A DNA stretch of 21,912 bases from a virus (IMGVR_UViG_3300021185_004475:1-21912); one strand, 5' to 3'; shown: positions 86-19,600, numbered from the stretch's first letter. Numbers and translations: made by a program. The notes: generated from the sequence alone by a model not told the origin.

Positions 86-3000
86 ATGAGCCAATTATTA
101 AGTGGAAAGGTTAGAGTAGTAAAACCTGTCAATGTTTCTGAAGATAGGTATGAATATCTACGATTAAATGAAGCTGAACCAAATTTGGGTGTTCCTATAA
201 GTGGTTCACTTACATCTGGTTCAATTGCTCTTGTTGCCTCTGATGCAGATGGTAATCGTTTATTTGTTACAACACTTCAATTAGAACAGGTAACTGGTTC
301 TTTTAGTGGTTCATTTGCAGGAGATGGTTCTGAATTAAATAACTTACCAGAAGCAGTAAGATTAATATCTGGTTCTACATCCGCATCAATTGCACCAAAT
401 ACTGGATTTTTAGTAAACGTATCATCATCATTTGGTGGAGATATGGATATCGATGGTGATGTTAAAGTTACTGGTGATTTAATTGTTGATAATAGAATTG
501 TAGCAAGAGAATTAATTGTTGAAATTATTTCATCTTCAATAATATTTTCTTCAGGCTCAAATAGATTTGGTGAATTTTCAACAGATAAGCAAGAATTTAC
601 AGGTTCGGTTGAAGTAACTGGTTCATTGGATGTATTTGGAGATACTACTATAAGTGGTTCTACATTTGTTAGTGGTAATATACAATTAACATCTGGTTCA
701 GCATTTAGTGGTAGTGGTGAGAATTTATTTAATATTCCAAAATCAGCACTTGCACCAGATTCATTAACTTCTGCTCTTATAGCAACAGGTTCAGTAACCG
801 CATCGGTTTCAACTGATGGATTTTTTAGAGTACAAGGAAGTGGTTCCGTAACAACCGAATTAAGTGGTTCTACTTTTATTAGTGGTAACCTACAACTTAA
901 TAGTGGTTCTGCTTTTAGTGGTAGTGGTGAAAACTTATTCAATATACCAAAAAGTGCATTAACTGATGATGCACTACTTTCTAATCTAATAACAACTGGT
1001 TCAGTAACTGCTTCAGTTTCCCAAGATGGATTCTTCCGAGTATTTGGAACTGGTTCGGTAACAACTGAATTGAGTGGTTCATTATTGGTTAGTGGAAATG
1101 TTAATCTTAATAGTGGTTCTTCATTTAGTGGTAGTGGTGAGAACTTATTCAATATACCAAAAAGTGCATTAACTGATGATGCATTAGAAACAAATTTAAT
1201 TATTAGTGGAGCAATAACTGCTTCAGTTTCACCAGAAGATGGATTTGTTGTAAATTCAATAGAAAGTGGTTCAACATTCTTTGGTGATGTTCAGTTAGTA
1301 TCTGGTTCTGTATTTAGTGGTAGTGGTAGGGATTTATTCGATATACCTCGTTCAGCATTAACTGAAGATGCAGACCTTTCTAATTTAATCACAACGGGTT
1401 CAGTATCGGCATCAGTTTCAACTGATGGATTTTTTAGAGTATTTGGAACTGGTTCAGTAACAACTGAATTAAGTGGTTCATTGTTTGTTAGTGGAACAGT
1501 TCAACTTAATAGTGGTTCGAAATTTAGTGGTAGTGGTGAAGATTTATTCGATATACCACGTTCAGCACTAACAGAAGATGCACTATTATCAACATTCATT
1601 ACAAGTGGGTCTGTAACCGCATCCGTATCACCTGATGAGGGATTTGTAGTAACCTCAATAGAAAGTGGCTCTACATTTAGTGGTTCTGTATTTTTATCAT
1701 CTGGTTCATTCTTTAGTGGTAGTGGTGAAAACTTATTTAATATTCCTAAATCAGCATTAGTTGATGATGCATTACTTTCCAATTTAATAACAACTGGTTC
1801 AGTAACTGCTTCTGTATCATCTGATGGTTTCTTTAGAGTATTAGGAACTGGTTCAGTAATAACTGAATTAAGTGGTTCTTTATTTGTTAGTGGGAATATT
1901 GAAATAAATAGTGGTTCAACTTATTCTGGTAGTGGTGAAAATTTATTCAATATACCATTAGCAGCATTAAGTGATGATGCACAAAATGCAATTAACGCAG
2001 CTGCATCTTTGGAAGCGGGTATATTAGCTAGTGGTTCAATAACAGCATCAGCAACCAATAATGTTTTTACAGTAACCTCTATTGAAAGTGGTTCAATATT
2101 TAGTGGTAGTGTAAGATTAAGTAGTGGTTCTGTATTTAGTGGTAGTGGGGCTGAACTATTTAATATTCCAAAATCTGCATTAGTTGAAGATGCATTGGTT
2201 TCTAATTTAATCCAAACAGGCTCAGTAACCGCATCAGTTTTACCTGATGGTACATTTAAAGTATTCGGAACAGGTTCAGTAAAATCTGAATTTAGTGGTA
2301 GTGTTTCTATAACAGAAACATTAGATGTTCCAAAAATTATAGCAGATGAAATTACTGGTTCATTTAGTGGTTCATTTGCAGGAGATGGTTCGGAGTTAAA
2401 TAATATTCCATTATCAGCATTATCAGAAGATGCATTTAAAATAGCAAGTGGTTCAGCAACTGCATCTATTTCTCCAAATTTAGGATTTGTAGTAAATACA
2501 TCATCATCAATAGAGGGTGATTTATCAGTTAGTGGTAGAATTACAGCTGAAGAATTATTTGTAAACTTTATATCTTCATCAGTAGTAATATCAACTGGTT
2601 CTAACATACTTGGTAATGATGGTGGTAATACCACTCAGAAATTATTTGGAGAAACTACAATAGAAGGAAATATAACTGCTAGTGGAGTAATAACATCAAG
2701 TGGTTTCATAGGAGATGGTGCAGGATTATTTAATATCCCACAATCAGCACTATCAGAAGATGCTTTCCAAATATCAAGTGGTTCAGTAACTGCTTCGGTT
2801 TCACCTGATGATGGTTTTGTAGTAACATCAATTGAAAGTGGTTCTACCTTTAGTGGTAGTTTGAGAATAAGTAGTGGTTCTACATTTAGTGGTAGTGGTG
2901 CTGAATTATTCGATATACCATTATCAGCTCTTTCTGAAATATCTCCATTAATAGCAAGTGGTAGTGTAACTGCATCAACTAATCCTAATGATGGGTTTGT

Positions 3001-6000
3001 AGTAACCTCAATAGAAAGTGGTTCTACATTTAGTGGTAGTGTAAGATTAAGTAGCGGTTCTTCGTTTAGTGGTAGTGGTAAAGATTTATTCGATATACCA
3101 TTTTCAGCAATAACGCAAGAAGCATTTAGAATTGTAAGTGGTTCAGTAACAGCATCAGTTCATCCGACTAGAGGATTTGAAGTAAATTCAACTGGTAGAT
3201 TTGATGAAGGTATAACTACAAGTGGTAGTTTAATAGTATCTGCATCTAATTCTTGGGCTGCTGATAATGACATTAAAATTGTAAAAGTAATTTCTACTGA
3301 TGATGGTAACAAATATGAAATAGATGGATATAGACAACCTTTACTTTATTTAGTAAGTGGTAGTACATATACATTTAATCAATCAGATTCTTCAAATAAT
3401 ACACATCCGATAAGATTTTCAACAATCGAACATGGTGTACATAATGGTGGGGTTCCATTTACTGGTAGTGTGGATACTGGAAGTGTTCTTGCTGGTACGG
3501 ATGGTTCTGAAGTTACTATTGAAATAACCGCTGATACACCTGATACTTTATATTACTATTGTGTTAATCACAATGGAATGGGTGGAGAAATTAAAAAAGT
3601 AAAAAGTTATCCAATCACCCAAACAATAATTGAAGATACTGTTATCATAAGTGGTGGATTGGATGTAACTGAAACTATTAATGCTCCTATTGTAAAAGCA
3701 AATGAATTTAGTGGTTCATTTAGTGGTTCGGGTAGAGATTTATTTGATATTCCTCTTTCAGCACTTGCTGAAAAGGTAGAGGAGTTATCATTTATAGCAA
3801 GTGGTAGTATAACTGCATCGGTTAACCCAGCATTTGGATTTAAGGTAAATTCATCAGCATCAATAGAGGGTGATACTATAATTTCCGGTGGTTTAGTTGT
3901 ATCTGAATCGGCTGTTATTGAAAATATACCAATAACTCAATCTGTAACAGTTGCTGAGAATAAATTCTTTGTACAAGGGTTACCAAGACCAAAATTAAAA
4001 CTTTTAGATAATACTTCGTATTATTTTGATTTATCGGATTCTTCAAACTTACTTCATCCATTTAGATTTTCAAGAACATATGATGGAACTTTAGAAGGTG
4101 GTATTGAATATACTACAACTATTACATCTGGAGCAGCAGCTGCTGGAACATCTGGAGCATATATAAACATAGAAGTAAGTGGAAGTTCACCAAACGTATT
4201 ATACTACTACACAGAGACTTCTGCATCATTTGGTAATATAGTTAGAAAATTAGGAGAAGCACCTACAATATCTCAGATAAGATTAATAGGTAATACCGCA
4301 ATAACTGGTGGTTTAGATGTTAGTGGAGTTTCTTCAGCAACATTATTATCATCACAAAATGTATCTGCATCCTTTGTATCATCTTCAATAGTTGATTTCA
4401 AAATTGGTGATAATTCATATGAAACAATTCCTGGTAGATTAAAATGGAATGAAACTGAAGGTACTCTTGATTTGGGTATGGGTGGTGAAACCGCATCATT
4501 ACAAATTGGTCAAAACTTATACTATCCATATGTAGTAAATAAAACTGGAGCTACTTTAGAGACTGGTACATTGGTTATGGTAGCACCTTCACAACCTACT
4601 TCTCTTAATAGATTAAGTGTTGTTAAGGCAATTACGGATGGTACTTATGATGAAGATAAAATAGTTGGTGTACTTACCGAAGATATTCAACATAACGGAC
4701 AGGGATTTGCAACTTGGTTTGGTTATGTTAGTAATTTAAATATCGCTGATTTAGAATCAGCTGGATTAAAATATACAGGTTCTGTATGGGTTGAAGGTGA
4801 AACTTTATATTCTGACCCTATAAGACCAGGTGGTTTAACAAATGAAAAACCACAAGCACCAAATTTAAAATCTTCAATAGCATTTATAACTACTATAACT
4901 GGACAAACTCTTAACTTATTAGTTAGACCTAAATTGGGAGAAAGTTTATCTGATTTACATGATGTACAAATTGCAACTGCATCTAATAATGATATCTTAG
5001 TATTTGTATCGGAATCAAATAGATTTGAAAATAGAAGTAGTGATTTAGTATTAAGTGGTTCATTTAGTGGTTCATACACTGGAGTTTATTTTGGTGATGG
5101 TTCAAACTTAGAAAATGTACAGGCAGCAGCTGCACCTCTTATATCAAGTGGTTCGGCAACGGCATCGGTTGCAAGTGGTGATACATTCATAGTAACGTCA
5201 CCTGTTAGTGGTTCAATCATAACAGGTTCAGTAGTAACATCTGGTTCAATAACTGTTGGTGGTGGTGGTATATTTAGTGGTGATGGTAGTGGACTTACCA
5301 ATATTGATATTGCAAACTTAGCACTTACATTAAATAAATTAGAGAGTGGTTCAGCAACGGCATCATTGGATATAGATGAATTCAAAGTATTTAGTAATAA
5401 TATAAGTACAAGTGTAGATTCATCTTTTAGTGGTTCGGTTAATATCTCAGAATCATTAAATGTAGGTGGAATTATTACTGGTGATGGTAGTGGGATTACA
5501 AATATTGATATAGCTAACTTAGCAATTGATTCATCAAAAATATTTACTGGTTCGGTAACTGCATCAGTTGACCCATTAGGTTTCTTTAGAGTAGAAAACT
5601 TAGACCCAAATATTAACTCAGGTTCAGTTAAAGTAGAAATAAGTGGTTCACTACATATTTCAGAATCAATAACTGCATCTTTATATAAAGGAGATGGTGG
5701 TGGATTATTTAATATTCCATTAGATGCATTAGAAGATTTACAATTAGATAGAATTATATCTGGTTCAGCAACTGCATCTATTTCTCCAAATTTAGGATTA
5801 GTTGTAAATAATCAAATTAGTGGTACATTATTCGTTGGTGATGGTGGAGGTTTATTCAACATTCCAGCTGATGCATTACAGGATTTACAATTACCTCAAA
5901 TTATTAGTGGTGGTATAAGTGCATCAGTTGAACCAACAGATGGATTTAGAGTTTACTCACCTCAATTTGGTTCAAAGTTTACTGGTTCACTTAATATTAG

Positions 6001-9000
6001 TGGGGCAGTAACTATACCATCTGGAAGTGGATTCTTTAGTGGTAGTGGTGAGGGATTATTTAATATTCCTGCTGATGCTATTGAAGGATTAGACCAAAGT
6101 AGAATACTTAGTGGTTCTGTAACCGCATCGGTTACTCCTGATGATGGATTCGTAGTTAGGTCAATTGATAGTGGTTCAACATTCTTCGGAGAAGTTAATT
6201 TCCAAAATGATGTAAGTGCATCTAAGATAACTGTAACTGATGAAATATTCTCACCAAGAATTACATCATCATTTGTAGGTTCATATCAAGGTGAAAATGT
6301 TGGTATAGATGTACCTGATGATTTAGATATTTTAATATTTGATGCAGATGCTAATAAGTTTAGACCTGTAACACAATTTGGTGATACTGCTGTATTCCCA
6401 TTCTCAGATGTAACTGAGGTAGTATTCCAACATAATTTTTCTCTTGATTATCCAGTAGTTCAAATTTATGAAACTGGTTCAAATGGACAGATTATTCCAC
6501 AAGCAATCGAATCAATCGATAGTTCATCTATTAGAGTAACCTTTAGTGGATTGACAAGTGGACAAGCAGTAATTGGTACTGGTGGTAGATTAGCAGGATT
6601 TGTAGAAGGTAGTAACGTTGTAGGTTTAGTTAATTCAGCATCTTATGCAGAATTTGCAGAAAACGCTGGAACAGCATCATCATTAGTAGGATTTGATTCA
6701 GCATCACTTGCTGAACTTGGAAACTTATCACAATATGTAAAGAGTAGCCAAACGGCATCGATGACTGTACTTTCAGCATCATATGCTGAAACTGCTTCAT
6801 TCGCTGTAAACGCTGGTGATTTTAATACTGATAATTTTGTAAGAACTGACCAAACGGCATCGATGACTGTACTTTCAGCATCATACGCTCTTTCAGCATC
6901 TTATGCAGTTAACGCAGTATCGGCTGAAGATTATGTAAGAAATGACCAAACTTCTTCAATGACTGTACTTTCAGCATCTTATGCAGCAACTGCTTCATTT
7001 GCATTAAACGCTGGTGATTTTGTAGGAGAAAATTTCTTACCAAATAATGGTACTGGTTCATTTGTTGGAAGATTTGAAGTAAGTGGTAGTTTAGTAGTAA
7101 CAGGTAGTGCACAACTAATAGGATTAGAAACAGGTAGTTCAGATACAGTTCTTGTTATTAATGAATCAACTGGACAGGTTTTCAAAAGAGATGTAACTGC
7201 AGTAAGTGGAACATCTGGTACAGGTGGTAGTGGTGGTACTTCTGGTTCATCTGGAAGTAGTGGTTCAGCTGGTACATCTGGTACATCAGGTTCTTCAGGC
7301 TCATCTGGTTCAAGTGGTACTTCTGGTAGTGGGGGTACAAGCGGTACAAGTGGAACATCTGGTACAAGTGGAAGTAGTGGTACAAGTGGTACAACTGGTA
7401 CTTCTGGTTCATCTGGTTCTTCTGGTAGTGGAGGTACAAGTGGTACTTCTGGTTCAGCTGGTACTTCTGGAACAAGCGGTTCATCTGGTTCGTCTGGTTC
7501 AAGTGGAAGTAGTGGAAGTAGTGGTAGTAGTGGAACATCAGGTTCGTCTGGTACATCTGGTACTGGAGGAACTTCTGGTTCAAGTGGAAGTAGTGGAAGT
7601 AGTGGGAGTAGTGGAACTTCTGGTACATCTGGGACAAGTGGTACTTCTGGAAGTAGTGGTACAAGTGGTTCAGCTGGAACAAGTGGTACTTCTGGTTCAT
7701 CAGGTAGAGAAGGTGGAAGATTATATGAAGTAATAAATGCAGGATTCCAATATTCATTTGATGGATATGCTGGAAACTTCCCAAAACTAACATTAGTAAA
7801 AGGGGAACTTTATTACTTCGATTTAAGTGGTGTAGGTAATGGGCATCCATTTGCATTAAGATTGGCTAGTGAAGATACTGATGATGTACCTGGTACACTA
7901 AACAATGACCCAACAAATGGAAATCATAGTACATCAGTATTCATAAGTTATAGAATACCTGAAGATGCACCAAATAACATAGTTTATCAATGTGCTAACC
8001 ATTCATCAATGGTAGGTCAGATTGAGATAGTAAATAAATACGGAACAAGCGGAACATCTGGTTCATCTGGTTCTTCTGGTAGTGGGGGTACATCTGGTAC
8101 TTCTGGTTCTTCTGGTAGTAGTGGTTCATCAGGTTCTTCTGGGACATCTGGAACAAGTGGTTCATCTGGAACATCTGGTTCTTCGGGTTCTTCAGGTTCA
8201 TCTGGTTCAAGCGGTAGTAGTGGAACATCGGGTTCTTCTGGTTCAAGTGGTACATCTGGTACGTCTGGAACGAGTGGAAGTTCTGGTTCTTCTGGTTCAA
8301 GCGGAAGTAGTGGTAGTAGTGGTAGTAGTGGAACGAGTGGAGAGCAAGGTTCTTCAGGTTCAGCTGGTACTTCTGGTACGAGTGGTAGTAGTGGTAGTAG
8401 TGGTTCAACCGGTACGAATGGTACGTCTGGAACAAGCGGTACGAGTGGAGCAGAAGGAAGTAGTGGTTCAGCTGGTACATCTGGAACTTCAGGTACCAAT
8501 GGAACTTCTGGTTCAGCAGGAACAAGCGGAACATCTGGAAGTAGTGGAACATCTGGAACAAGCGGAACTGCAGGTACTTCTGGAACAAGCGGAACATCTG
8601 GAACTTCTGGTAGTGGAGGTACGGCTGGTACATCTGGAACGAGTGGAACGAGTGGAACAACTGGTTCAGAGGGAACATCTGGAAGTAGTGGTACTTCTGG
8701 GACAAGTGGTAGTAATGGTACAAGCGGAACATCAGGCTCATCAGGTTCAGCTGGTACAAGTGGAACAAGTGGTTCCTCTGGTTCTTCTGGAACTTCTGGA
8801 ACGAGTGGTACAAATGGAACTTCGGGTTCATCTGGTTCAAGCGGAACATCTGGTTCATCTGGAACATCTGCAGAAGGTAGTAGTGGTACAAGTGGTAAAG
8901 ATGGTAACTTCGGTGGAGCATCATTCGATTACACATTCGCATCAGCAATAGGAAATTCAGAACCATCTGCTGGTAGACTTAGAATAAATAACTCTTCACA

Positions 9001-11563
9001 AAATATAGGTAATGAAATTTATATTAGTGAAACTGATGATGATGGGGGAAGTGTTCAATCGTTTATGGAAACGATGGACTCCGTTACTTCAGCAGTAAAA
9101 GCACATATACGAATTGCTAAAAAGTTCAATACTGATGAATACTTATTATTTGCAATAGGTGAATTAACCGATAATGGTGATTGGTGGACTCTTAGTGATT
9201 TATCAAATACAGGTTTCTCAACAGCCTCTCCTTTCACAAATGGTGATGATATTGTTGTATCTTTAGTTGCAGTTGGTGATAAAGGTGATACTGGTTCTTC
9301 TGGTACGAGTGGAAGTAGTGGTTCAACTGGAACCGCAGGTTCTTCTGGTTCTTCTGGAACTTCTGGTTCAAGTGGAACATCAGCAGAAGGTAGTAGTGGT
9401 ACAAGCGGAACATCAGGCTCATCTGGAACTTCTGGTTCTTCTGGTTCAGCTGGAACAAGCGGAACATCGGCAGAAGGTAGTAGTGGAACATCTGGTACAA
9501 ATGGTACATCTGGTTCATCTGGTATTATGGGAACTTCAGGTTCTTCTGGTACAACAGGTGAAGATGGTGAAGATGGAACTTCTGGAAGTAGTGGAAGTAG
9601 TGGACAAGATGGAACATTCTTTGGTTCATCTGGTACTTCTGGAACAAGTGGTTCCTCAGGCTCATCTGGTTCTTCTGGAACAAGCGGAACAACTGGAAGT
9701 GGTGGAACAAGTGGAGAAGATGGAACATTCTTCGGAAGTTCTGGTTCTTCTGGTACGAGTGGAAGTAGTGGTTCAACAGGTACTGCTGGTACAACAGGTA
9801 CTGCTGGTTCTTCTGGAACAAGTGGGGCAGAAGGAAGTAGTGGTTCAGCTGGTACATCTGGTACTTCTGGACAAGATGGAACGTTCTTTGGTAGTAGTGG
9901 TAGTTCTGGTTCAGATGGTACATCTGGAACTTCTGGAACTAATGGAACATCAGGTTCTTCTGGAACTAATGGTACATCTGGTACAAGTGGTGTAGATGGA
10001 ACATTCTTCGGTTCATCAGGCTCATCAGGTACGTCTGGTACTTCTGGAGCTGGTTCATCTGGAACTTCTGGTTTAAGTGGTTCTTCTGGAACATCTGGGA
10101 CAAGTGGACAAGATGGAACTTTCTTTGGAAGTTCTGGTACATCTGGAGATGATGGTACTTCTGGTACTTCTGGAGCAGGAACTTCAGGTTCCTCAGGTTC
10201 ATCTGGAAGTAGTGGTACTTCTGGACAAGATGGAACATTCTTTGGTTCATCTGGTACTTCTGGAACAAGTGGAACAAGTGGACTTGGAACTGATGGAACA
10301 TCTGGTATTAGTGGAACATCTGGTTCAGCTGGTACTTCTGGAAGTGGTGGAACAAGTGGACAAGATGGAACATTTTTCGGTTCTTCGGGTTCTGCGGGAA
10401 CATCTGGTACGACTGGAACTACTGGAAGTGCAGGTACTTCTGGTTCATCAGGTACTTCTGGAACAACTGGAAAAGATGGAACATTCTTTGGTAGTAGTGG
10501 TGTAAGTGGAACAAGTGGAACATCAGGTTCAACTGGAACATCGGGTTCATCGGGTTCTTCGGGTACTGCTGGTACATCTGGACAAGATGGTACTTTATTT
10601 GGAAGTAGTGGTTCTTCTGGTACGAGTGGAGTAAGTGGTTCTGCTGGAACATCAGGTGAAACTGGTTCAGCGGGTACATCTGGTACTTCTGGACAAGATG
10701 GTACTTTATTCGGTTCTTCTGGTTCATCTGGAACAAGCGGAGTAAGTGGTTCGTCTGGGACAAGTGGAGAAACTGGTTCAGCAGGTACATCTGGTGTTAG
10801 TGGTACAAGCGGACAGGATGGTACATTATTTGGTTCATCCGGTTCTTCTGGAACAAGCGGTGAAAGTGGTAGTAGTGGTACTTCTGGGGAAACTTCTTCA
10901 GCGGGAACATCTGGAACAAGTGGACAAGATGGTACTCTATTCGGTAGTAGTGGTTCATCTGGGGCAGATGGTGCTGACGGAACGAGTGGTTCTGGAGGAA
11001 CATCAGGTTCTTCTGGTACATCTGGAGAAGGTTCAAGTGGTAGTAGTGGTTCATCGGGTTCAAGTGGATTCTTAGAAGTTACTGATGATGGTGCTGAAAG
11101 AGTTCTTACTATGGATGGTGATGGAACTGCAACGGCTGAATCAAACTTAACATTTAACGGAACTGTATTAAATGTACTTGGAGATACAGTTATAAATGAT
11201 TCCTTAGAGGTTGGGCAATTAACATACTCTAAATACTATCATGAAACTTATAATGATTTAGGAGATTCAAATGGTGGAACTAATATAAATTTAATAACTG
11301 CTAATAATTTTAGAATTAGAAGAACAGGAAATATTACAATAACTATATCAAACGCACCAACAGGTCCTCGTGCAATTGGATTCACTTTACTATTGGAAGA
11401 TGGTAGTGGTGGAACAGCAACTACTAGTTGGCCAGGAGTAATACAATGGGCAAATGGTGTAGCACCAACACTAACGGCAAATGGAAAAGATATATTAGTA
11501 TTCTATACTTATGATGGGGGGAGTACTTATTATGGATTCCTAAGTGCAAATAATATAAGTTAA
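86..11563 (+). CDS. giant multidomain phage tail-fibre protein (3825 aa)
   Basis: Probably a long tail fibre or similar virion appendage. Order by residue: 1-65 N-terminal part, perhaps for virion attachment; about 70-1055 Ser-Gly strand repeats with GSFSGSFAGDGSELNN-type junctions; 1062-1175 and about 1284-1394 cupredoxin-like modules; about 1450-1650 a recurrent phage fibre module (GRLKWNETEG to LSDLHDVQI); about 1655-2070 further Ser-Gly repeats; about 2112-2175 a VFQHNFSLDYPVVQIYE-type module; about 2181-2310 SASYA repeats; 2375-2544, 2653-2937 and 3067-3661 Gly-X-Y shaft. A third cupredoxin-like module (2545-2652) and a YTFASAIGNSEPSAGRLR-type phage domain (about 2941-3066) interrupt the shaft. 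3661-3825 is a beta-rich tip ending in WANGVAPTLTANGKDILVFY and YYGFLSANNIS, a pattern seen at the C-termini of marine phage fibres. The ATG at 86 follows the previous stop by 23 bases and no clear Shine-Dalgarno is visible. No signal peptide or membrane segment is seen. The fibre role is confident; the exact fibre is unknown. Confidence 0.9.
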   Translation: MSQLLSGKVRVVKPVNVSEDRYEYLRLNEAEPNLGVPISGSLTSGSIALVASDADGNRLFVTTLQLEQVTGSFSGSFAGDGSELNNLPEAVRLISGSTSASIAPNTGFLVNVSSSFGGDMDIDGDVKVTGDLIVDNRIVARELIVEIISSSIIFSSGSNRFGEFSTDKQEFTGSVEVTGSLDVFGDTTISGSTFVSGNIQLTSGSAFSGSGENLFNIPKSALAPDSLTSALIATGSVTASVSTDGFFRVQGSGSVTTELSGSTFISGNLQLNSGSAFSGSGENLFNIPKSALTDDALLSNLITTGSVTASVSQDGFFRVFGTGSVTTELSGSLLVSGNVNLNSGSSFSGSGENLFNIPKSALTDDALETNLIISGAITASVSPEDGFVVNSIESGSTFFGDVQLVSGSVFSGSGRDLFDIPRSALTEDADLSNLITTGSVSASVSTDGFFRVFGTGSVTTELSGSLFVSGTVQLNSGSKFSGSGEDLFDIPRSALTEDALLSTFITSGSVTASVSPDEGFVVTSIESGSTFSGSVFLSSGSFFSGSGENLFNIPKSALVDDALLSNLITTGSVTASVSSDGFFRVLGTGSVITELSGSLFVSGNIEINSGSTYSGSGENLFNIPLAALSDDAQNAINAAASLEAGILASGSITASATNNVFTVTSIESGSIFSGSVRLSSGSVFSGSGAELFNIPKSALVEDALVSNLIQTGSVTASVLPDGTFKVFGTGSVKSEFSGSVSITETLDVPKIIADEITGSFSGSFAGDGSELNNIPLSALSEDAFKIASGSATASISPNLGFVVNTSSSIEGDLSVSGRITAEELFVNFISSSVVISTGSNILGNDGGNTTQKLFGETTIEGNITASGVITSSGFIGDGAGLFNIPQSALSEDAFQISSGSVTASVSPDDGFVVTSIESGSTFSGSLRISSGSTFSGSGAELFDIPLSALSEISPLIASGSVTASTNPNDGFVVTSIESGSTFSGSVRLSSGSSFSGSGKDLFDIPFSAITQEAFRIVSGSVTASVHPTRGFEVNSTGRFDEGITTSGSLIVSASNSWAADNDIKIVKVISTDDGNKYEIDGYRQPLLYLVSGSTYTFNQSDSSNNTHPIRFSTIEHGVHNGGVPFTGSVDTGSVLAGTDGSEVTIEITADTPDTLYYYCVNHNGMGGEIKKVKSYPITQTIIEDTVIISGGLDVTETINAPIVKANEFSGSFSGSGRDLFDIPLSALAEKVEELSFIASGSITASVNPAFGFKVNSSASIEGDTIISGGLVVSESAVIENIPITQSVTVAENKFFVQGLPRPKLKLLDNTSYYFDLSDSSNLLHPFRFSRTYDGTLEGGIEYTTTITSGAAAAGTSGAYINIEVSGSSPNVLYYYTETSASFGNIVRKLGEAPTISQIRLIGNTAITGGLDVSGVSSATLLSSQNVSASFVSSSIVDFKIGDNSYETIPGRLKWNETEGTLDLGMGGETASLQIGQNLYYPYVVNKTGATLETGTLVMVAPSQPTSLNRLSVVKAITDGTYDEDKIVGVLTEDIQHNGQGFATWFGYVSNLNIADLESAGLKYTGSVWVEGETLYSDPIRPGGLTNEKPQAPNLKSSIAFITTITGQTLNLLVRPKLGESLSDLHDVQIATASNNDILVFVSESNRFENRSSDLVLSGSFSGSYTGVYFGDGSNLENVQAAAAPLISSGSATASVASGDTFIVTSPVSGSIITGSVVTSGSITVGGGGIFSGDGSGLTNIDIANLALTLNKLESGSATASLDIDEFKVFSNNISTSVDSSFSGSVNISESLNVGGIITGDGSGITNIDIANLAIDSSKIFTGSVTASVDPLGFFRVENLDPNINSGSVKVEISGSLHISESITASLYKGDGGGLFNIPLDALEDLQLDRIISGSATASISPNLGLVVNNQISGTLFVGDGGGLFNIPADALQDLQLPQIISGGISASVEPTDGFRVYSPQFGSKFTGSLNISGAVTIPSGSGFFSGSGEGLFNIPADAIEGLDQSRILSGSVTASVTPDDGFVVRSIDSGSTFFGEVNFQNDVSASKITVTDEIFSPRITSSFVGSYQGENVGIDVPDDLDILIFDADANKFRPVTQFGDTAVFPFSDVTEVVFQHNFSLDYPVVQIYETGSNGQIIPQAIESIDSSSIRVTFSGLTSGQAVIGTGGRLAGFVEGSNVVGLVNSASYAEFAENAGTASSLVGFDSASLAELGNLSQYVKSSQTASMTVLSASYAETASFAVNAGDFNTDNFVRTDQTASMTVLSASYALSASYAVNAVSAEDYVRNDQTSSMTVLSASYAATASFALNAGDFVGENFLPNNGTGSFVGRFEVSGSLVVTGSAQLIGLETGSSDTVLVINESTGQVFKRDVTAVSGTSGTGGSGGTSGSSGSSGSAGTSGTSGSSGSSGSSGTSGSGGTSGTSGTSGTSGSSGTSGTTGTSGSSGSSGSGGTSGTSGSAGTSGTSGSSGSSGSSGSSGSSGSSGTSGSSGTSGTGGTSGSSGSSGSSGSSGTSGTSGTSGTSGSSGTSGSAGTSGTSGSSGREGGRLYEVINAGFQYSFDGYAGNFPKLTLVKGELYYFDLSGVGNGHPFALRLASEDTDDVPGTLNNDPTNGNHSTSVFISYRIPEDAPNNIVYQCANHSSMVGQIEIVNKYGTSGTSGSSGSSGSGGTSGTSGSSGSSGSSGSSGTSGTSGSSGTSGSSGSSGSSGSSGSSGTSGSSGSSGTSGTSGTSGSSGSSGSSGSSGSSGSSGTSGEQGSSGSAGTSGTSGSSGSSGSTGTNGTSGTSGTSGAEGSSGSAGTSGTSGTNGTSGSAGTSGTSGSSGTSGTSGTAGTSGTSGTSGTSGSGGTAGTSGTSGTSGTTGSEGTSGSSGTSGTSGSNGTSGTSGSSGSAGTSGTSGSSGSSGTSGTSGTNGTSGSSGSSGTSGSSGTSAEGSSGTSGKDGNFGGASFDYTFASAIGNSEPSAGRLRINNSSQNIGNEIYISETDDDGGSVQSFMETMDSVTSAVKAHIRIAKKFNTDEYLLFAIGELTDNGDWWTLSDLSNTGFSTASPFTNGDDIVVSLVAVGDKGDTGSSGTSGSSGSTGTAGSSGSSGTSGSSGTSAEGSSGTSGTSGSSGTSGSSGSAGTSGTSAEGSSGTSGTNGTSGSSGIMGTSGSSGTTGEDGEDGTSGSSGSSGQDGTFFGSSGTSGTSGSSGSSGSSGTSGTTGSGGTSGEDGTFFGSSGSSGTSGSSGSTGTAGTTGTAGSSGTSGAEGSSGSAGTSGTSGQDGTFFGSSGSSGSDGTSGTSGTNGTSGSSGTNGTSGTSGVDGTFFGSSGSSGTSGTSGAGSSGTSGLSGSSGTSGTSGQDGTFFGSSGTSGDDGTSGTSGAGTSGSSGSSGSSGTSGQDGTFFGSSGTSGTSGTSGLGTDGTSGISGTSGSAGTSGSGGTSGQDGTFFGSSGSAGTSGTTGTTGSAGTSGSSGTSGTTGKDGTFFGSSGVSGTSGTSGSTGTSGSSGSSGTAGTSGQDGTLFGSSGSSGTSGVSGSAGTSGETGSAGTSGTSGQDGTLFGSSGSSGTSGVSGSSGTSGETGSAGTSGVSGTSGQDGTLFGSSGSSGTSGESGSSGTSGETSSAGTSGTSGQDGTLFGSSGSSGADGADGTSGSGGTSGSSGTSGEGSSGSSGSSGSSGFLEVTDDGAERVLTMDGDGTATAESNLTFNGTVLNVLGDTVINDSLEVGQLTYSKYYHETYNDLGDSNGGTNINLITANNFRIRRTGNITITISNAPTGPRAIGFTLLLEDGSGGTATTSWPGVIQWANGVAPTLTANGKDILVFYTYDGGSTYYGFLSANNIS
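701..2340 (+). repeat. alternating 70/63-residue Ser-Gly tandem repeats in the first fibre
   Basis: Units begin at a codon before TTT-AGT-GGT-AGT-GGT (FSGSG) at 701, 911, 1121, 1310, 1520, 1709, 1919 (degenerate, YSGSG) and 2132. Spacings are 210, 210, 189, 210, 189, 210 and 213 bases. Each unit reads FSGSGENLFNIPKSALxDDA, then GSVTASVS, then one of two endings: DGFFRVxGTGSVTTELSGS (long form) or DGFVVTSIESGSTFSGS (short form). Related but more diverged units continue to about 3200 and again at 5050-6250. The pattern suggests a repeating beta-structured, probably trimeric shaft. Some neighbouring units are nearly identical in DNA (for example 941-974 and 1151-1184), pointing to recent duplication or recombination. 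Confidence 0.85.
3269..3610 (+). other. cupredoxin-like domain 1 (His-Cys-His-Met set intact)
   Basis: Residues 1062-1175 of the first giant fibre. A beta-rich stretch holds TYTFNQSDSSNNTHPIRFS, then about 50 residues later LYYYCVNHNGMGGEI. H1107, C1159, H1162 and M1165 occupy the order and approximate spacing of type 1 copper ligands in plastocyanin-like cupredoxins (an early His, then Cys-x2-His followed by Met). This is family reasoning from ligand pattern, not proof of copper binding. I recall similar HPxRFS ... YYYCxNHxGMGG modules in marine phage structural proteins. Confidence 0.65.
3932..4264 (+). other. cupredoxin-like domain 2 (ligands lost)
   Basis: Residues about 1284-1394. The fold signature of domain 1 is kept: SYYFDLSDSSNLLHPFRFS, then LYYYTETSASFGNI. 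The early His (H1324) is present, but the Cys, second His and Met positions read Thr1376, Ser1379 and Phe1382. It therefore looks like a structural copy that could not hold a type 1 copper centre. Paralogy with domains 1 and 3 is clear by eye from the xDSSNxxHPxRFS and LYYY blocks. Confidence 0.6.
4433..5045 (+). other. recurrent phage fibre module (GRLKWNETEG to LSDLHDV)
   Basis: Residues about 1450-1650 of the first fibre. The stretch GRLKWNETEGTLDLGMGGE, then QIGQNLYYPYVVNKTG, IVGVLTEDI, VWVEGETLYSDPIRPGGLTN, KPQAP and finally LSDLHDVQIAT matches a module I recognise in many unrelated phage tail and fibre proteins. No enzymatic residues stand out, and a structural role is assumed. The LSDLHDV segment usually marks the join to a following repeat or tip segment, and here Ser-Gly repeats resume just after it. 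Confidence 0.55.
6626..7020 (+). repeat. SASYA alanine-rich repeats
   Basis: Residues about 2181-2310 carry repeated SASYA/TASFA blocks. Three units are built on QT(A/S)SMTVLSASYA, spaced about 102 and 96 bases apart. A 36-base stretch starting at 6748 recurs without change at 6850. The motif is common in marine phage fibres just before a Gly-X-Y shaft and probably forms a trimeric neck. The duplication looks recent at the DNA level. Confidence 0.75.
7208..7717 (+). repeat. Gly-X-Y (collagen-like) region 1
   Basis: Residues 2375-2544 form 56 uninterrupted triplets with Gly in every third place. X and Y are almost only Ser and Thr (GTS, GSS, with some GSA, GSG and GTG), and there is no proline. 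It ends at GREGGR, where cupredoxin-like domain 3 begins. Synonymous codons are mixed (AGT, TCT, TCA, AGC for Ser; GGT, GGA for Gly), so the repeat is much purer in protein than in DNA. Confidence 0.85.
7718..8041 (+). other. cupredoxin-like domain 3 embedded in the Gly-X-Y shaft
   Basis: Residues 2545-2652 interrupt the Gly-X-Y shaft. The blocks LYYFDLSGVGNGHPFALRL and IVYQCANHSSMVGQIEIV repeat the domain 1 pattern. H2587, C2636, H2639 and M2642 keep the full His, Cys-x2-His-x2-Met set. The domain is sharply bounded by Gly-X-Y sequence on both sides, as expected for a cassette placed between shaft segments. Copper binding is inference. Confidence 0.65.
8042..8896 (+). repeat. Gly-X-Y (collagen-like) region 2
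   Basis: Residues 2653-2937 are Ser/Thr-rich Gly-X-Y triplets with a few charged or Asn positions (GEQ, GAE, GTN, GSN). Phase is broken once near the end by GTSAEG, where five residues rather than three separate the glycines. No proline is present. The next globular domain starts at KDGNFGG. Confidence 0.85.
8897..9283 (+). other. phage fibre domain between Gly-X-Y regions (YTFASAIG type)
   Basis: Residues about 2941-3066. The order FDYTFASAIGNSEPSAGRLR, IYISETDDDGGSVQSFM, then LFAIGELTDNGDWWTLS and GDDIVVSLVAVGDKGDTG matches a domain widespread in tail fibres of phages and prophages, usually found just before a collagen-like segment opening with GDKGDTG, as here. Function is unknown beyond structure, possibly receptor contact. 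Confidence 0.65.
9284..11068 (+). repeat. Gly-X-Y region 3 with 12 punctuating GQDGT(F/L)FGSSG units
   Basis: Residues 3067-3661. Ser/Thr Gly-X-Y triplets are interrupted by twelve copies of (Q/E/V/K)DGT(F/L)FGSSG. The first begins at 9602 and the last at 10922, an average pitch of 120 bases. Each GTFFG or GTLFG puts four residues between glycines and shifts the triplet phase by one. The first eight copies have Phe-Phe and the last four Leu-Phe; the last four are spaced 111, 120 and 111 bases. Other breaks are two GTSAEG and four short GxG steps (GAG twice, GLG, GEG). One glycine is replaced: S3604 in GETSSAG, where sister units have GETGSAG. Confidence 0.85.
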
Positions 11564-11576
11564 TGAGTTATGAATT

Positions 11577-12500
11577 ATGAGTATAGCAAGAAGATTATTA
11601 TCAATAGGAGGAGGACAAGTGAGACCGTTTAAATTTACAATACAAACAACATCAGCAAATACTCAATTTGAGTTACCTATTACTGCGCCAGGTGGAAATC
11701 AACCCAATTTAACAGTAAGTTGGGGTGATGGTAGTTCTGATAATACAATTATTTCAGTTAGTTCTTCGGATAGATTTCACACATATACATCAGCTGGTAC
11801 TTATCAAATTATAGTTGGTGGATATTGTCCAGGTTTTAGTGTAGGTAATAATCCATCATATAAAAACTTATATAAATCAGTTGATGATTGGGGACTTACG
11901 CAACTCGAAGAAGTAAATTTCTATGGTTGTGGTAATTTAACATCCATACCTATGGATGGTTCTAATAACGCAATATTAAACGATGGTTTAAATACTATAA
12001 AAAGATTCGATTCTACATTTAGACAAACTGGCATTACTATTATACCCAATGGAATATTTGATTACTCATCAAATGTAACCTCATTTACTAACACATTTGT
12101 ATTTTGTACAGGAATAACATCAATACCATCTGATTTATTTGATAACAATACAAATGTAACATCTTTTTCTGGTACATTTAACGCATTGCTAAATTTAACA
12201 TCAATACCAGTTGGATTATTTGATAATAACCCATTAGTAGTAAACTTCGAATCAGTTTTTAGAAACTGTAGAAAGGTAGCTGGTATCCCAGCTCAATTTT
12301 TTACTAATAACCAACAAGTTACTACTTTTGCAAATGCATTTAATATGGCAACTACATCAAACTTATTAACTGGTGTAACTCCAGAAGATGCTAATGGTGA
12401 TGAAATATTTGAAAGAGGTTCAAGTCCTATTGGTACGGATTGTTTTGCTTTTTGTAGTGGTTTAACTAATTTTGGTTCAATACCAGCAACATTTAAATAA
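11577..12500 (+). CDS. PKD-like plus BspA-type leucine-rich repeat protein, candidate adhesin
   Basis: A 307-residue protein. Residues about 43-86 fit a PKD-like beta-sandwich (VSWGDGSSDN, then HTYTSAGTYQIIV). Residues 142-248 hold four 26-27-residue repeats of the form TSFxxTFxxxxxLTSIPxxLFDNNxxV, typical of BspA/DUF285-type leucine-rich repeats found on surface and adhesion proteins; a degenerate unit follows to the C-terminus. It lies between a giant fibre gene (13 bases upstream) and a fibre chaperone gene (6 bases downstream), the place where T4-like phages often carry fibre-tip genes. I infer binding to a host surface or a fibre tip. No signal peptide or membrane segment is seen. Start choice is uncertain: the ATG at 11577 has no clear ribosome site, while an in-frame GTG at 11619 has a strong one; the GTG would remove 14 residues (MSIARRLLSIGGGQ). 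Confidence 0.8.
   Translation: MSIARRLLSIGGGQVRPFKFTIQTTSANTQFELPITAPGGNQPNLTVSWGDGSSDNTIISVSSSDRFHTYTSAGTYQIIVGGYCPGFSVGNNPSYKNLYKSVDDWGLTQLEEVNFYGCGNLTSIPMDGSNNAILNDGLNTIKRFDSTFRQTGITIIPNGIFDYSSNVTSFTNTFVFCTGITSIPSDLFDNNTNVTSFSGTFNALLNLTSIPVGLFDNNPLVVNFESVFRNCRKVAGIPAQFFTNNQQVTTFANAFNMATTSNLLTGVTPEDANGDEIFERGSSPIGTDCFAFCSGLTNFGSIPATFK
11606..11611 (+). promoter_or_regulatory. strong Shine-Dalgarno for a possible internal GTG start
   Basis: AGGAGG at 11606-11611 (part of AGGAGGAGGA) stands 7 bases before an in-frame GTG at 11619-11621, codon 15 of the PKD/LRR gene. The same bases also encode the Gly-Gly-Gly run of the longer form, so the match may be coincidental. It is the best Shine-Dalgarno in the window. 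Confidence 0.4.
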
Positions 12501-12506
12501 TAAGAT

Positions 12507-12965
12507 ATGTACTTAAAAGTTTCAGGCTCAACAATAACTTATCCATATTCGGTTCAAAATTTAAAGAATGAGAATCCTAGTATAAGTTTTCCAACAATCA
12601 TAGCAGATAGTTTATTGGAGTCATTCAACATCTACAAAGTTGAAACAAAAAGTAGTGGATATGATAGTGATGATACAAAAGATGTAACTGAAGTAACACC
12701 AACCTTATCTGGTTCGGTTTATGTACAAACATATAACATAACTGATGCAGATGAAGAAACAATAAATAAGAGAAGAGAAATAAAATGGTCGGAAGTAAGG
12801 AGTAATAGAGATTCATTATTATCTGAATGCGATTGGACACAATTTAACGATTCTCCAATATCAGGTTCAACTCTAACAGATTGGCAAACATATAGACAAT
12901 CACTAAGAGATATAACAAATCAATCTACCCCATACGATATTACTTGGCCTAATAGACCTTCTTAG
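12507..12965 (+). CDS. tail-fibre assembly chaperone family protein
   Basis: A 152-residue protein that probably helps fold or trimerise the neighbouring fibres and may not remain in the virion. The C-terminal half is diagnostic: WSEVRSNRDSLLSECDWTQF, then DWQTYRQSLRDITNQSTPYD, then ITWPNRP. This is the RDxLLxxxDWTQ ... WxxYRQxLRDI ... WPxxP pattern of the phage tail assembly chaperone family (Phage_tail_APC type). The N-terminal half (YPYSVQNLKNENPSISFP) is the form usual in marine T4-like phages. It starts 6 bases after the LRR gene, so the two are probably co-transcribed, and no clear ribosome site is visible. Family assignment is fairly sure; which fibre it serves is not shown. Confidence 0.85.
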   Translation: MYLKVSGSTITYPYSVQNLKNENPSISFPTIIADSLLESFNIYKVETKSSGYDSDDTKDVTEVTPTLSGSVYVQTYNITDADEETINKRREIKWSEVRSNRDSLLSECDWTQFNDSPISGSTLTDWQTYRQSLRDITNQSTPYDITWPNRPS

Positions 12966-13697: not shown

Positions 13698-16600
13698 ATG
13701 GAATACGGTGGAAAGAATCCAAATGGAATAAATCAAGTCAGTCAAAGTTTACTTTCGATTGATGTTCAAGGTGTAGAGCAAATAAACATATCAACCTCAT
13801 CGGTTGATATTAATACATCTTTGAATGTCGAAGGTGGAATAACTGCATCTTCGTTTAGTGGTTCTTTTACTGGTTCATTTAAAGGAGATGGTTCTCAATT
13901 AGAAAGTATTCCAACAACTGCACTTACTGGTGATATTGGTAGAATAGCTGAAGGTTCAGCAACTGCATCAGTTTTAAGTGGAACTTCATTCGAAGTAAGT
14001 GTACCTACAAATATAGTAGGTAATGTAACATCAACTGGTGATTTAGATATTCAAGGAGAGTTATCTGCATCTTTATATAAAGGTGATGGTGGGGGATTAT
14101 ATAATATACCCGCTGATGCATTAGGTGATATAGATAGATTAAAATCAGGTTCAATTGAAGCTATAATATCTCCCAATAAAGGACTTAGAGTAGAAACTGG
14201 TGTTACTGTAAGAGATTATCTTATTGTAACTGGTAGTGGTGTTTTTAAGAGTGATGCAAAAGTAGATACATTCTTATTAGTAGGAACTGATTTAAAAGTA
14301 ACAGGTTCAGCAGATATAGCAAATAATTTAAATATATCCAACGATTTAACAGTTGGTAATAACTTAGCTGTAAATGGAACAATTACTTCAAATGAGTTAA
14401 TAACAACATTTATTTCATCATCAGTAATTTATGCATCAGGTTCAAATGTGTTTGGTGATGAGAGTACTGATTCACATCAATTTACAGGTTCAGTATTAAT
14501 TAAAGATTCGGTAGTAATTCCGGTCTTTAGTTCAGAACCTGCTGGTGGTCAACTTGGACAATTATATTATAACTCAACTGATACCAACATATTTAGATAC
14601 ACTGGTTCAGAATGGGAACCTGCAGCTGGTACTGCTGGTACGTCTGGTACTTCTGGTACTTCTGGTACATCCGGAAGTGGTGGAACTTCTGGTACAAGTG
14701 GTACAAGTGGAACAAGTGGTACTGGGGGTTCATCTGGTACAAGTGGTTCTGGTGGAACATCTGGAAGTGGAGGTTCAAGTGGAACAACAGGTTCAGCTGG
14801 TACATCTGGCTCTGGTGGAACTTCTGGTTCTGGTGGAACAAGTGGCTCAAGCGGAACATCTGGTTCTGGTGGAACATCTGGAAGTGGAGGTTCATCTGGA
14901 ACATCTGGAAGTGGAGGTTCAAGTGGAACATCTGGTTCTGGTGGAAGTTCTGGAAGTGGAGGAACATCTGGTTCTGGTGGAACAAGTGGTACATCAGGAA
15001 CTTCTGGTACATCTGGTGTAGATGGAGATGATGGTACTGATGGTGTAGATGGTAATGATGGTTCGGATGGAGAAGATGGAACTTCTGGTTTAGATGGTAC
15101 ATCTGGTAGTGGAGGTTCATCGGGCTCTTCAGGTTCTTCTGGTAGTTCTGGTTCATCTGGTTCTTCTGGTATTGGTGGTGGTGATGGAGATGATGGTTCG
15201 GATGGAACATCTGGAACAAGCGGAACATCTGGAATAGATGGTACTGATGGTACTGCAGGAAGTGGAGGTTCAAGTGGTTCTGGTGGAACAAGTGGTTCTG
15301 GTGGTTCATCTGGTTTAACTGGAGCTGGTGGTGGAGATGGTTCATCTGGAACAAGTGGTTCTGGTGGTTCATCTGGTAGTGGTGGTTCAAGTGGTTCTGG
15401 TGGAACTTCTGGTAGTGGAGGAACATCTGGTACAAGTGGAACAAGTGGTTCAGCTGGTAGTGGAGGAACTTCAGGTTCTGGTGGTACGAGTGGAGCACAA
15501 GGTGAAGATGGTGAACAAGGTACAAGTGGTTCTGCTGGAACAAGTGGAACAAGTGGTACGAGTGGTACGAGTGGAACGAATGGTACTGCAGGGAGTGGAG
15601 GAACTTCTGGTAGTGGTGGTTCTTCTGGTATAGATGGAACTGATGGTACTGCTGGTAGTGGAGGTTCATCTGGAAGTAGTGGAACATCTGGTACAAGTGG
15701 AACAAGTGGTACATCTGGTTCTTCTGGAGTATTATCCTTAACAGGCACAACTGATAATGGGTTAATTACATTAAATGGTACTGCACCAAACGCAACTGTT
15801 GAAAGTAATCTTACTTTTGATGGTACAACATTAAACATAACAGGTAACTTAAATGTAACGGGTACACAAACAAGTGTAAATACCGAAACAATTTTGTTAG
15901 CAGATAATATTATAACTCTTAATTCAAACTTTACAACAGGTACTCCTTCAGAGGATGGTGGTATTGAGATATTAAGGGGTTCTTCAGCAACTAAAAAATT
16001 CTTTTGGGATGAATCATCCGATAGATGGTATGCTGATAACGCATTAGAATCAAACAATCTTTATTTAACTGGTGTAACTCAACCAACTATATTCTTTAAT
16101 GGTTCTTCGGATAGTGGAATTGATATGGCTATTAGAGCAACACCTGAAGGATTAGATTTCTATGAACCAGAAGATGGAAACAAAATACATTTCCAAGTTT
16201 TAGATGATACTGGTGTAAATGCAGTATTTGGATATAAACTAAATGGTACTGAAATTGTAGATACATCCCGTAACTTAGTTAATATTGGTACTATTAATAC
16301 TGGACAAGGTGCAACTGAGGTTTATAATATGAACCAAAATGTTCGTACAACCGATTCACCTACATTTGATAATTTAACAGTTGGTGATAGTGGAAACACT
16401 GGAACTTCTTTAAATATTATAGCAACTAATACGGCTGGTTCTCCTGCCGCAACTGCTATGATTAATATGAGTGGTTATGAAGGTAGAGCAATTGGTACTT
16501 TATTTACTGATGTATCTTATAGTGGACAAGAATGGTTTAGTGGTTTACGATATAGTGGTGGATTTGCTAATTATCAAATTGGATATCATTCAAGTGGTGG

Positions 16601-19600
16601 ACAAGCTGAATACTCAGCAAACTCATTATTAACAATTAACAAATCAGGTGAAGCAACATTTAGTGGTGGTGTAAACTCAACCTTCCTTAATACTGGACAT
16701 GGTGATAATGAGTTGTACGCAATGAACCAAAATGTTCGTACATCTGATAATGTTGAATTCAATCAGGTAACTGCTGGTAATTTTGTAGGAAATGTAAGTG
16801 GTACTGCTGATAGAGCAGAGGCAGTTGATTCAAATGATACTAGAGGTACAAATGATTTACCAAATAGTAAAGAAAAGGGTGTTTACTTTGATTTCAAAAG
16901 TAATGCAACCAATGGATTGAGTGATGGTGGTTCGTATAACGGACAAATGCATTGGAGAAGTTATGGTGGTGGTTCTGATTTAAGTGGAGGATATCCAATT
17001 CAGATTTCATATACTGCTAGTGGTAGATTATGGAGTAGATTAGGAAGTGGTACTACAACTTGGAATAGTTGGAGACAAATATTAGATAGTGTATCTCAAC
17101 CATACGCATATAATATGAACCAAAATGTTCGTACATCTGATTCTCCTCAATTTGCAAGAGTTTATTTAGATAATACAAATAATTATATAGATTCGAATGG
17201 TAGTTATCTATCATTTAAATCAGGTGGTAACGAAATGTTATTTGGTGGTTCAACATCAATGTACATTAACTATCGTGCAGCACTTGGTGGAACACCAACT
17301 CATTGGATTTGGAATGCTGGTTCATCATCATCATTTTCACAATTTACTTTAGGTAGATTAAACGCTGATAATTTATATGATAGAAACAATACTGGATATA
17401 GAGTAGACCCTGCATCTACTTCTATCTTAAATGAGTTAAGAGTAGATGGGTACATAAGACATAATGGTGATACAAATACTTACATTAGATTTGTAGGAGC
17501 TGATGATTTACAATTAGTAGCAGGTGGTAGACAAATGATTAGAATGGATGAAGGTACTGATCCTGATATTCTTCAATTAGGTGATTCTGCTACATACACT
17601 AGAAATGAAGGACATTTAATTGTTGGTCAAACTGGTATATCATATACAAATACAGATAATGCTCCATTGGTTGGTTCAAAAACTGATAATAGAGTACATA
17701 TCAATGGTTCAATTCAATTAACCAGCAATAACGATGCTATCGTATTCGGTAGAGGAACATCTTCATTTATGAAAGATGAAGAAATTGGCTTCGGATGGGG
17801 TGGTGGTTGGTATATGACCGATGGTACTTACCTAAGAGTAAGAAATAATAAAATTCTTTATTCAACTGGTGAATTTTGGGCTAGTAGATTTAATGATGTA
17901 AATAATACTGGATATTATGGTGACTTTGCATCTACATCAAATTTAAATCAGTTAAATGTTATTACTTTAAATGTTAGTGGTAACACTACATTAGGTAATG
18001 GTAATGGAGATACAACTCATATTAATGATATAGTTCATATTGGAGCAACTGATAGTGGTAATTCTGATTTATTCTTTGGTGAAGGTTCTACAAACAACAT
18101 TAGATATGGTGTTCATTGGAATTGGGATTCAGGATATAGATTTACTTGGAACACGAGAAACAATGGTACTGATACAACATTATTCTACTATGATACTAAT
18201 AGTACATCTTATGTATATTGGAATAGACACTTCCATATGCAGAATAAGGAAATTAACTATGTAGGTCAATTACACTTTAATGATAATGTTAGATTCTATG
18301 ATGAAGGTAATGATTCATATCTAAACTTCAAATATGGAGATTCTAATGCAGGTGGTATTAAGTTCGTAAATGGTGGTGGTACTCGAAAGGGGTATGTATA
18401 TGCTGATAATAGTGGATTTGGTTTATTAGATAATGATGGAAGTTGGGCAGTAAGAACCCAAACTGGTTCCAATCCATTAGAATTAAGAACTAATAATAAT
18501 GTAGAATTCTACGTTTATGATTCATACACATATTCACCAGGTTCATCAAGAGCACCAATATTTTATGATTCCAATGATACAGGGTATTATTCAGACCAAA
18601 ACTCAACAACTAGATTAAATAGATTATACATTAATCCAAGAAATGATAATTATAATGTTGGTTCTATCAATAGTACAAATAATCAAAGTGATTGGCAAAA
18701 TCTTACTAATACAAATGGACAATTTACTGTAACTCAGTATAATGCAATACAAAACTATACAAATTCACCAACGGGTCTTTATACATATGGTTCAGTATTA
18801 AGTACGAGAACAGTAAATCACTCATTCCAATTATATTCATCACATACTGGTGATTTAGCATATAAAACACAATGGAATAACGATAATTACTCAGGATGGT
18901 TAACCATTCCTGCTTATGGTAGAAATGGTGGTAACTCTGGTAATGCTTTATATGCATCTCAATTTATTGATTCAAATAGTACGGGTTATTACGCAGACCC
19001 TGCATCAACATCAAATTTTTACAATTTACAATTAACTGGAGCTAAACACACATACCTTTATATAAGTCCAGGTAATGGATATGAGGCTATGGTTAGGTTC
19101 AATGGTGGTAGTGGTAGTACTTGGTATGCTGGTAGTAGAACTTCTTCACAATTAGTAGGTTCAACTGATGCATGGCATGTATATTCACAAACTAGAGGTA
19201 GAACTGTTTCTGGTACTGATAATTCTGGTAATACATATTCTTATGCTTCATCAAGAGCACCAATATTCTATGATTTAGATAATACTGGATACTATGTAAA
19301 TCCTGCTGAAGCATCAAGACTACAACGTCTTTATGTTGAAGGTGGACATGGTGATACTCGAATTCAATTACACTACAATAATGGTAATGATATTTATGAT
19401 TCTCATCTAACCTTATGGGCATCTGAGCCAGGTATCACTTATGATAATAGTGGTATTGGTGGTAACATAAACTTTAGTGGACAATATTATGGTAGACAGA
19501 CTAATAGTAACGCTTATGGTACATATCTAAGATTTGATGTAAACTCAGGATATAGTGAATTCTGGTCAACTACTGGTAGTGCTGGTAGTTCTGGTGGACA

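Follow-up and report, generated by a model that had tools for sequence, protein, structure and literature searches.

The window analyzed here, a 21,912-nucleotide stretch of DNA from a virus (IMGVR_UViG_3300021185_004475), contains a giant tail-fibre ORF in which three cupredoxin-like modules had been predicted from the sequence, two of them with the His-Cys-His-Met (HCHM) ligand order of type 1 copper sites. This raises the question of whether these modules adopt a cupredoxin fold, whether the retained residues form a metal site, and what such a site would do in a phage fibre. We located three homologous modules of about 105 residues each, D1, D2 and D3, in this ORF (Table 1). Tail-fibre PHROGs match the C-terminal part of its product (phrog_7760, E 8.5e-15), and the downstream gene for a tail-fibre assembly chaperone further supports a tail-fibre setting.

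Table 1. Modules, predicted ligands and neighbouring features of the fibre gene, in window coordinates
Feature	Position	Strand	Basis
Giant tail-fibre ORF, 3825 aa, carrier of all three modules	86-11563	+	ORF call; C-terminal tail-fibre PHROG match
D1, aa 1060-1175, predicted cupredoxin fold, complete H-C-H-M set	3263-3610	+	
Codon of H1107, first ligand of D1	3404-3406	+	
D1 ligand loop, C1159-VN-H1162-NG-M1165	3560-3580	+	
D2, aa 1284-1394, same fold family, H1324 the sole remnant of the metal set	3935-4267	+	
Collagen-like run, 57 uninterrupted Gly-X-Y triplets, abutting D3 on its 5' side	7208-7720	+	
D3, aa 2546-2652, predicted cupredoxin fold, complete H-C-H-M set	7721-8041	+	
Codon of H2587, first ligand of D3	7844-7846	+	
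D3 ligand loop, C2636-AN-H2639-SS-M2642	7991-8011	+	
Collagen-like run, 92 uninterrupted Gly-X-Y triplets, abutting D3 on its 3' side	8042-8869	+	
Tail-fibre assembly chaperone (Phage_tail_APC)	12507-12965	+	Pfam PF16778, E 1.3e-18; PHROG tail fibre assembly

Two other ORFs of the window were also inspected. The one between the fibre gene and the chaperone gene (11577-12500) showed weak similarity to BspA-type leucine-rich repeats (Pfam LRR_5, E 5e-5, under the cut-off) and matched PHROG 9915, a family of unknown function. A second giant fibre ORF (13698-21911; at least 2738 residues, continuing past the contig end) contains repeats of the 'RAPIFYDSNNTGYYVDPASTS' type, a collagen-like run of 123 Gly-X-Y triplets and a single Cys; the cupredoxin module is absent from it. 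A T4-type gp23 encoded on a contig with the same fibre was 51-53% identical to those of an uncultured phage, Microcystis phage Mel-JY01 and Flavobacterium phages, and the nearest gp23 relatives of contigs with this fibre are not marine cyanophages.

The complete ligand set was found in D1 (H1107, C1159, H1162 and M1165) and in D3 (H2587, C2636, H2639 and M2642), with every residue at its predicted position. As had also been claimed, D2 lacks the Cys, the second His and the Met, which are replaced by Thr, Ser and Phe, and keeps the surrounding blocks (DLSDSSN, YYY and others); its first His is present as H1324 in HPFRFS. Accordingly, the type 1 ligand order and predicted topology are seen in D1 and D3 and not in D2. 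The 3825 residues of the protein include just two cysteines, C1159 and C2636, each of them a loop ligand, and the pattern C-x2-H-x2-M did not arise in any of 20,000 shuffles of the protein. A profile built from the modules and their relatives matched the window exactly three times, at residues 1075-1169 (E 1e-34), 1292-1384 (E 2e-26) and 2555-2646 (E 6e-20). Since a single profile recovers all three at this significance, the modules are homologous, and their pairwise identities are 38, 32 and 25%.

AlphaFold2 models of D1 (pLDDT 89.9, 16-row alignment) and D3 (pLDDT 89.6, 23-row alignment) are both beta sandwiches. When these models were compared with known structures by Foldseek and VIA-align, cupredoxins headed both lists, which consisted almost entirely of cupredoxin domains: the pseudoazurin 2ux6, plastocyanins, rusticyanin, AcoP, auracyanin, laccases and the cupredoxin domain of nitrite reductase. 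For D1, the highest-ranked structure was 2ux6, a pseudoazurin with an amicyanin loop (E 9.6e-5). The best Z scores, both to 2dv6, were 9.2 for D1 (rmsd 2.7 over 99 residues) and 9.6 for D3 (rmsd 2.6 over 97 residues), only slightly higher than the 7-8 that can be reached by models lacking a clear match. By prediction, D1 and D3 are Greek-key beta sandwiches that match known cupredoxins, in agreement with the fold originally proposed. In both models, the first His lies directly ahead of the strand at about 49-54, the Cys at the end of the penultimate strand, and the second His and Met at the start of, or just ahead of, the last strand. As modelled, this placement matches type 1 copper sites in topology, so that the fold prediction called for at the outset puts the ligands where they belong. 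A structure search of BFVD with the D1 model also returned 'beta-sandwich proteins' from Pithovirus and Marseillevirus metagenome records.

At the sequence level, a profile comparison with 15 cellular plastocyanin-family proteins from whole genomes gave P 4e-6, with the Cys and second His paired. A PDB profile search with a broad alignment placed plastocyanin near the top, aligned over most of the module with the first His, Cys and second His paired, although at E of about 0.3 this match is suggestive only. The N-terminal part of the module alone gave no signal against the plastocyanin family (P 0.19), and searches of PDB sequences with single modules returned no meaningful match. Thus, kinship to cupredoxins is supported by the fold and the ligand loop, the remainder of the module being too diverged. 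No module of the window reaches the Pfam cut-off for PF00127 (Copper-bind), and we therefore do not file the module as a member of that family. PF00127 matched 6 of 72 relatives (best E 8e-4); it and PF25489 (At5g54830-like) match few relatives, and the one match inspected in detail is below the cut-off. Neither Pfam nor NCBIfam holds a model that covers the module. A match to the N-domain of purple acid phosphatase (E 0.007, below the cut-off) was dismissed as a beta-sandwich cross-hit.

Conservation of the ligands among homologues had been set beforehand as the test on which the prediction would depend, and it proved to be strong. The HCHM state was present in 255 of 269 distinct copies and in 54 of 64 representatives sharing less than 60% identity. 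The first scans used a YYCxNH pattern that included the Cys, which might have inflated these counts. We therefore rescanned with an alignment of the N-terminal part alone, ending ahead of the YYYC stretch and hence blind to the Cys, second His and Met. Of the 84 complete distinct copies recovered in this way, 80 contained CxxHx2-4M, and all four exceptions were D2 orthologues, which rules out ascertainment by the search pattern as the source of the conservation.

The copies that lack the Cys are also informative. In these copies, conservation dropped most steeply at the columns of the Cys (C84), second His (H87), Met (M90) and first His (H33) and at G92 and H45, and the scaffold columns F23, S26, N30, G7 and Y51 remained at 100%. 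Loss of the first His was associated with loss of the Cys (Fisher p 3e-4 among representatives), a value that is indicative, given few lineages: the Cys-less set comprises 11 copies in about six lineages, and the shape of the tree limits the independence of this joint-loss test. Because the ligand positions vanish together in degenerate copies and the scaffold columns do not, it appears that the residues are functional where they are kept, as was first suggested from their retention in two modules and loss in one. Column 45 corresponds to H1119 of D1 (window 3440-3442) in a GTHGG block and is kept in 80% of copies with the Cys versus 36% of those without it; this additional His may be part of the surroundings of the metal site. 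Cysteine is rare in the carriers: in 99 distinct viral carrier ORFs, the ligand-position Cys accounts for 125 of 369 cysteines, a third of the total, and in 42 of the 99 every Cys is a ligand.

In a tree of 72 modules, D1, D2 and D3 fell into separate groups with support of 100/99, 99/98 and 100/99, respectively, although the alignment offers few columns and the deep forks are poorly supported. Their orthologues usually occupy the equivalent place in the fibres of relatives. A recent tandem duplication is excluded by the placement of each module in its own supported orthologue clade. Throughout the D2 group the Cys, second His and Met are missing, and the first His is retained only in the window and its closest relative. 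Two relatives (L057 and L058) have an intact D1-like module at the middle position, which indicates that this position tolerates a full site.

The module is also widespread. Matches were found in 260 phage records with the D1 query and in 311 with the D3 query, mostly from phages of Synechococcus and Prochlorococcus and also from Pelagibacter and Methylophilales phages, and at least 591 IMG/VR stretches contain it; a scan of viral contigs with D2 as the query gave no matches. Among isolates, it is located at the C-terminus of gp9 in S-RIM2 and S-SSM7, in gp7 of P-HM2 and in tail fibres of Mosig, Melnitz, HTVC028P and EXVC032P, and almost every complete copy there has HCHM. The carriers match tail-fibre and baseplate PHROGs. 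The expectation that such a module would be unusual in a marine phage appendage is contradicted by these numbers, which show it to be common, and the overall interpretation first offered is therefore supported in part.

Outside phages, 64 bacterial and archaeal contigs carry the module. Stray phage contigs may account for some of them, and several with module-bearing lipoproteins look clearly cellular. In lipoproteins of Marine Group II archaea (L153, L154, L146 and L159), the module is at the end of a collagen-like stalk; gammaproteobacterial and SAR86 lipoproteins (L156, L145 and L171) also bear it, some on cadherin-like stalks, and it occurs on cadherin/RTX-type proteins of cells as well. 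The tree does not separate viral from cellular copies. The four archaeal lipoproteins pair a collagen-like stalk with a cupredoxin module, the same pairing as that of D3 in the phage fibre.

The long Gly-X-Y runs that flank D3 (Table 1) place the ORF among collagen-like phage fibres. Many shorter runs follow beyond D3, up to residue 3649, so that the collagen-like region spans window positions 7208-11034, and a later stretch of the ORF gives a sub-cut-off score to Pfam Collagen. The X and Y positions are almost exclusively Ser or Thr, and proline is absent. This framing of D3 was conserved in all relatives examined. Given the collagen-like runs, the fibre is probably trimeric, and each module would then be displayed three times.

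Fold, ligand set, strong conservation, joint loss and placement in tail proteins have been established computationally, and the explanation that we prefer, at a probability of about 0.6, is that D1, D2 and D3 are cupredoxin-fold modules for decoration and surface contact along the fibre, for which clamping by copper is predicted. Its parts differ in strength. The residues of D1 and D3 very probably form a metal site, and the metal is likely to be copper; a role in copper-clamped decoration together with surface contact is more tentative, at somewhat less than even odds. D1 and D3 would each contain a mononuclear copper site of type 1 ligand make-up with a short amicyanin-type C-x2-H-x2-M loop, and D2 would be an orthologous, metal-free descendant. 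The fibre would be synthesized in the host cytoplasm with a free thiol, and the site might take up copper after release or during lysis. The bound metal would clamp the beta sandwich and leave the module rigid and cysteine-safe in oxic water, and the module surface may take part in contact with the host or a glycan, a step that we infer from location alone. Electron transfer would be unnecessary for such a clamp.

The same ligands might instead constitute a working redox centre, with Cu(I)/Cu(II) cycling at the host surface or in the tail serving to exchange electrons with host envelope proteins or to scavenge oxidants. A full HCHM set is characteristic of electron-transfer cupredoxins, the fold matches include plastocyanin, rusticyanin and pseudoazurin, and the lipoprotein-anchored cellular relatives resemble membrane-tethered cupredoxins. 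However, the fibre showed neither a redox partner nor an electron-transfer domain, its modules are widely spaced along the shaft, and no use is known for moving electrons at an adsorption fibre, so that we consider this function very unlikely. We hold it equally doubtful that the modules are copper-free in life and that their residues serve folding, zinc binding or a thiol-based task, for example linking the chains of the trimer. A single Cys in each module might form a bond across chains, and type 1 sites are able to take other metals in vitro. Nevertheless, the two His and the Met drop out with the Cys while the scaffold stays, a pattern that a disulphide or folding role would not lead one to expect; Met would be an odd zinc ligand, and D2 shows that the fold persists when the ligand set is gone.

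Copper might also act as bait or mimicry, the copper counterpart of the Ferrojan-horse idea for iron, with a loaded module engaging host copper uptake or imitating the cupredoxin-bearing surface proteins of marine microbes. In favour of this idea, Marine Group II archaea, SAR86 and further marine bacteria have lipoproteins with the same module, viral and cellular copies fail to form two separate groups in the tree, and the module is located on the adsorption proteins gp9 and fibres. We nonetheless judge it improbable, since most carriers infect hosts other than those with known surface proteins of this kind, no receptor has been identified, and some copies in genome bins may be stray phage contigs. 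A large, repetitive, low-complexity protein could in principle acquire a short motif by chance or convergence. The probability of this is negligible: the shuffles and the homology of three modules (E of the order of 1e-20 to 1e-34) argue against it, as do the predicted cupredoxin fold and the hundreds of conserved relatives, and it is refuted by the blind-scan conservation together with the shuffles and the joint loss of ligands.

The fold and the ligand set are already known as such, and it is the presence of a cupredoxin family in virion fibres and baseplate connectors that is without a Pfam or NCBIfam model, or a paper in the open literature searched. That search of the open literature found nothing relevant on a cupredoxin or copper-binding domain in phage tail fibres, virions or cyanophages. 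In a 2010 comparison of cyanophages, plastocyanin appears only as a separate gene, petE, and the word 'copper' is absent from the main text (PMC3037559). Were copper bound at these sites, many abundant marine phages would be metalloparticles, with copper-dependent stability or adsorption as a possible consequence, in surface water where copper is a trace metal, scarce and toxic at once. A function would then be available for 'virion structural protein' entries in hundreds of cyanophage records, phage fibres would be linked to a stalked surface-protein family of marine microbes, and the copper content of purified cyanophage particles would be predicted to scale with the number of gp9 and fibre copies. 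A broader proposal, which we regard as rather unlikely, is that the adsorption machinery of marine tailed phages contains copper: an undescribed cupredoxin family, common to them and to stalked surface proteins of marine archaea and bacteria, would load it on fibres and gp9 connectors, where it would contribute to host recognition or render infection sensitive to seawater copper status.

Among known systems, the module resembles the plastocyanin/azurin family (PF00127) in predicted fold, in the His...Cys-x2-His...Met order and in the residues paired by profile. In contrast to that family of soluble electron carriers, it is part of a structural virion protein and has 'HP' rather than 'HN' at the first ligand, and its C-x2-H-x2-M loop is two residues shorter than the C-x2-H-x4-M loop of plastocyanin. 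The loop spacing is identical to that of amicyanin (CTPHPFM, in the title of PDB 2vmj), but the overall sequences are unrelated at a detectable level and the phage module has no methylamine-oxidation setting. The cyanophage gp9 baseplate wedge-tail fibre connector (phrog_677) and tail-fibre PHROGs 30742, 27200 and 693 contain the same HCHM module, of which their annotations make no mention as a cupredoxin, whereas the window protein combines collagen-like runs with three modules on a far longer shaft. In Marine Group II archaea and marine Gammaproteobacteria, stalked lipoproteins likewise share the HCHM module, which there caps a collagen-like or cadherin-like stalk at its C-terminus; these are cellular proteins with a lipobox membrane anchor and one module each, versus three in the window fibre. 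Finally, Ig-like domains occur in the tail and fibre proteins of numerous phages and are thought to help surface contact. They and the modules described here are both beta sandwiches inserted in tail or fibre proteins, but Ig-like domains carry no metal set, whereas the modules of the window match cupredoxins and carry one.
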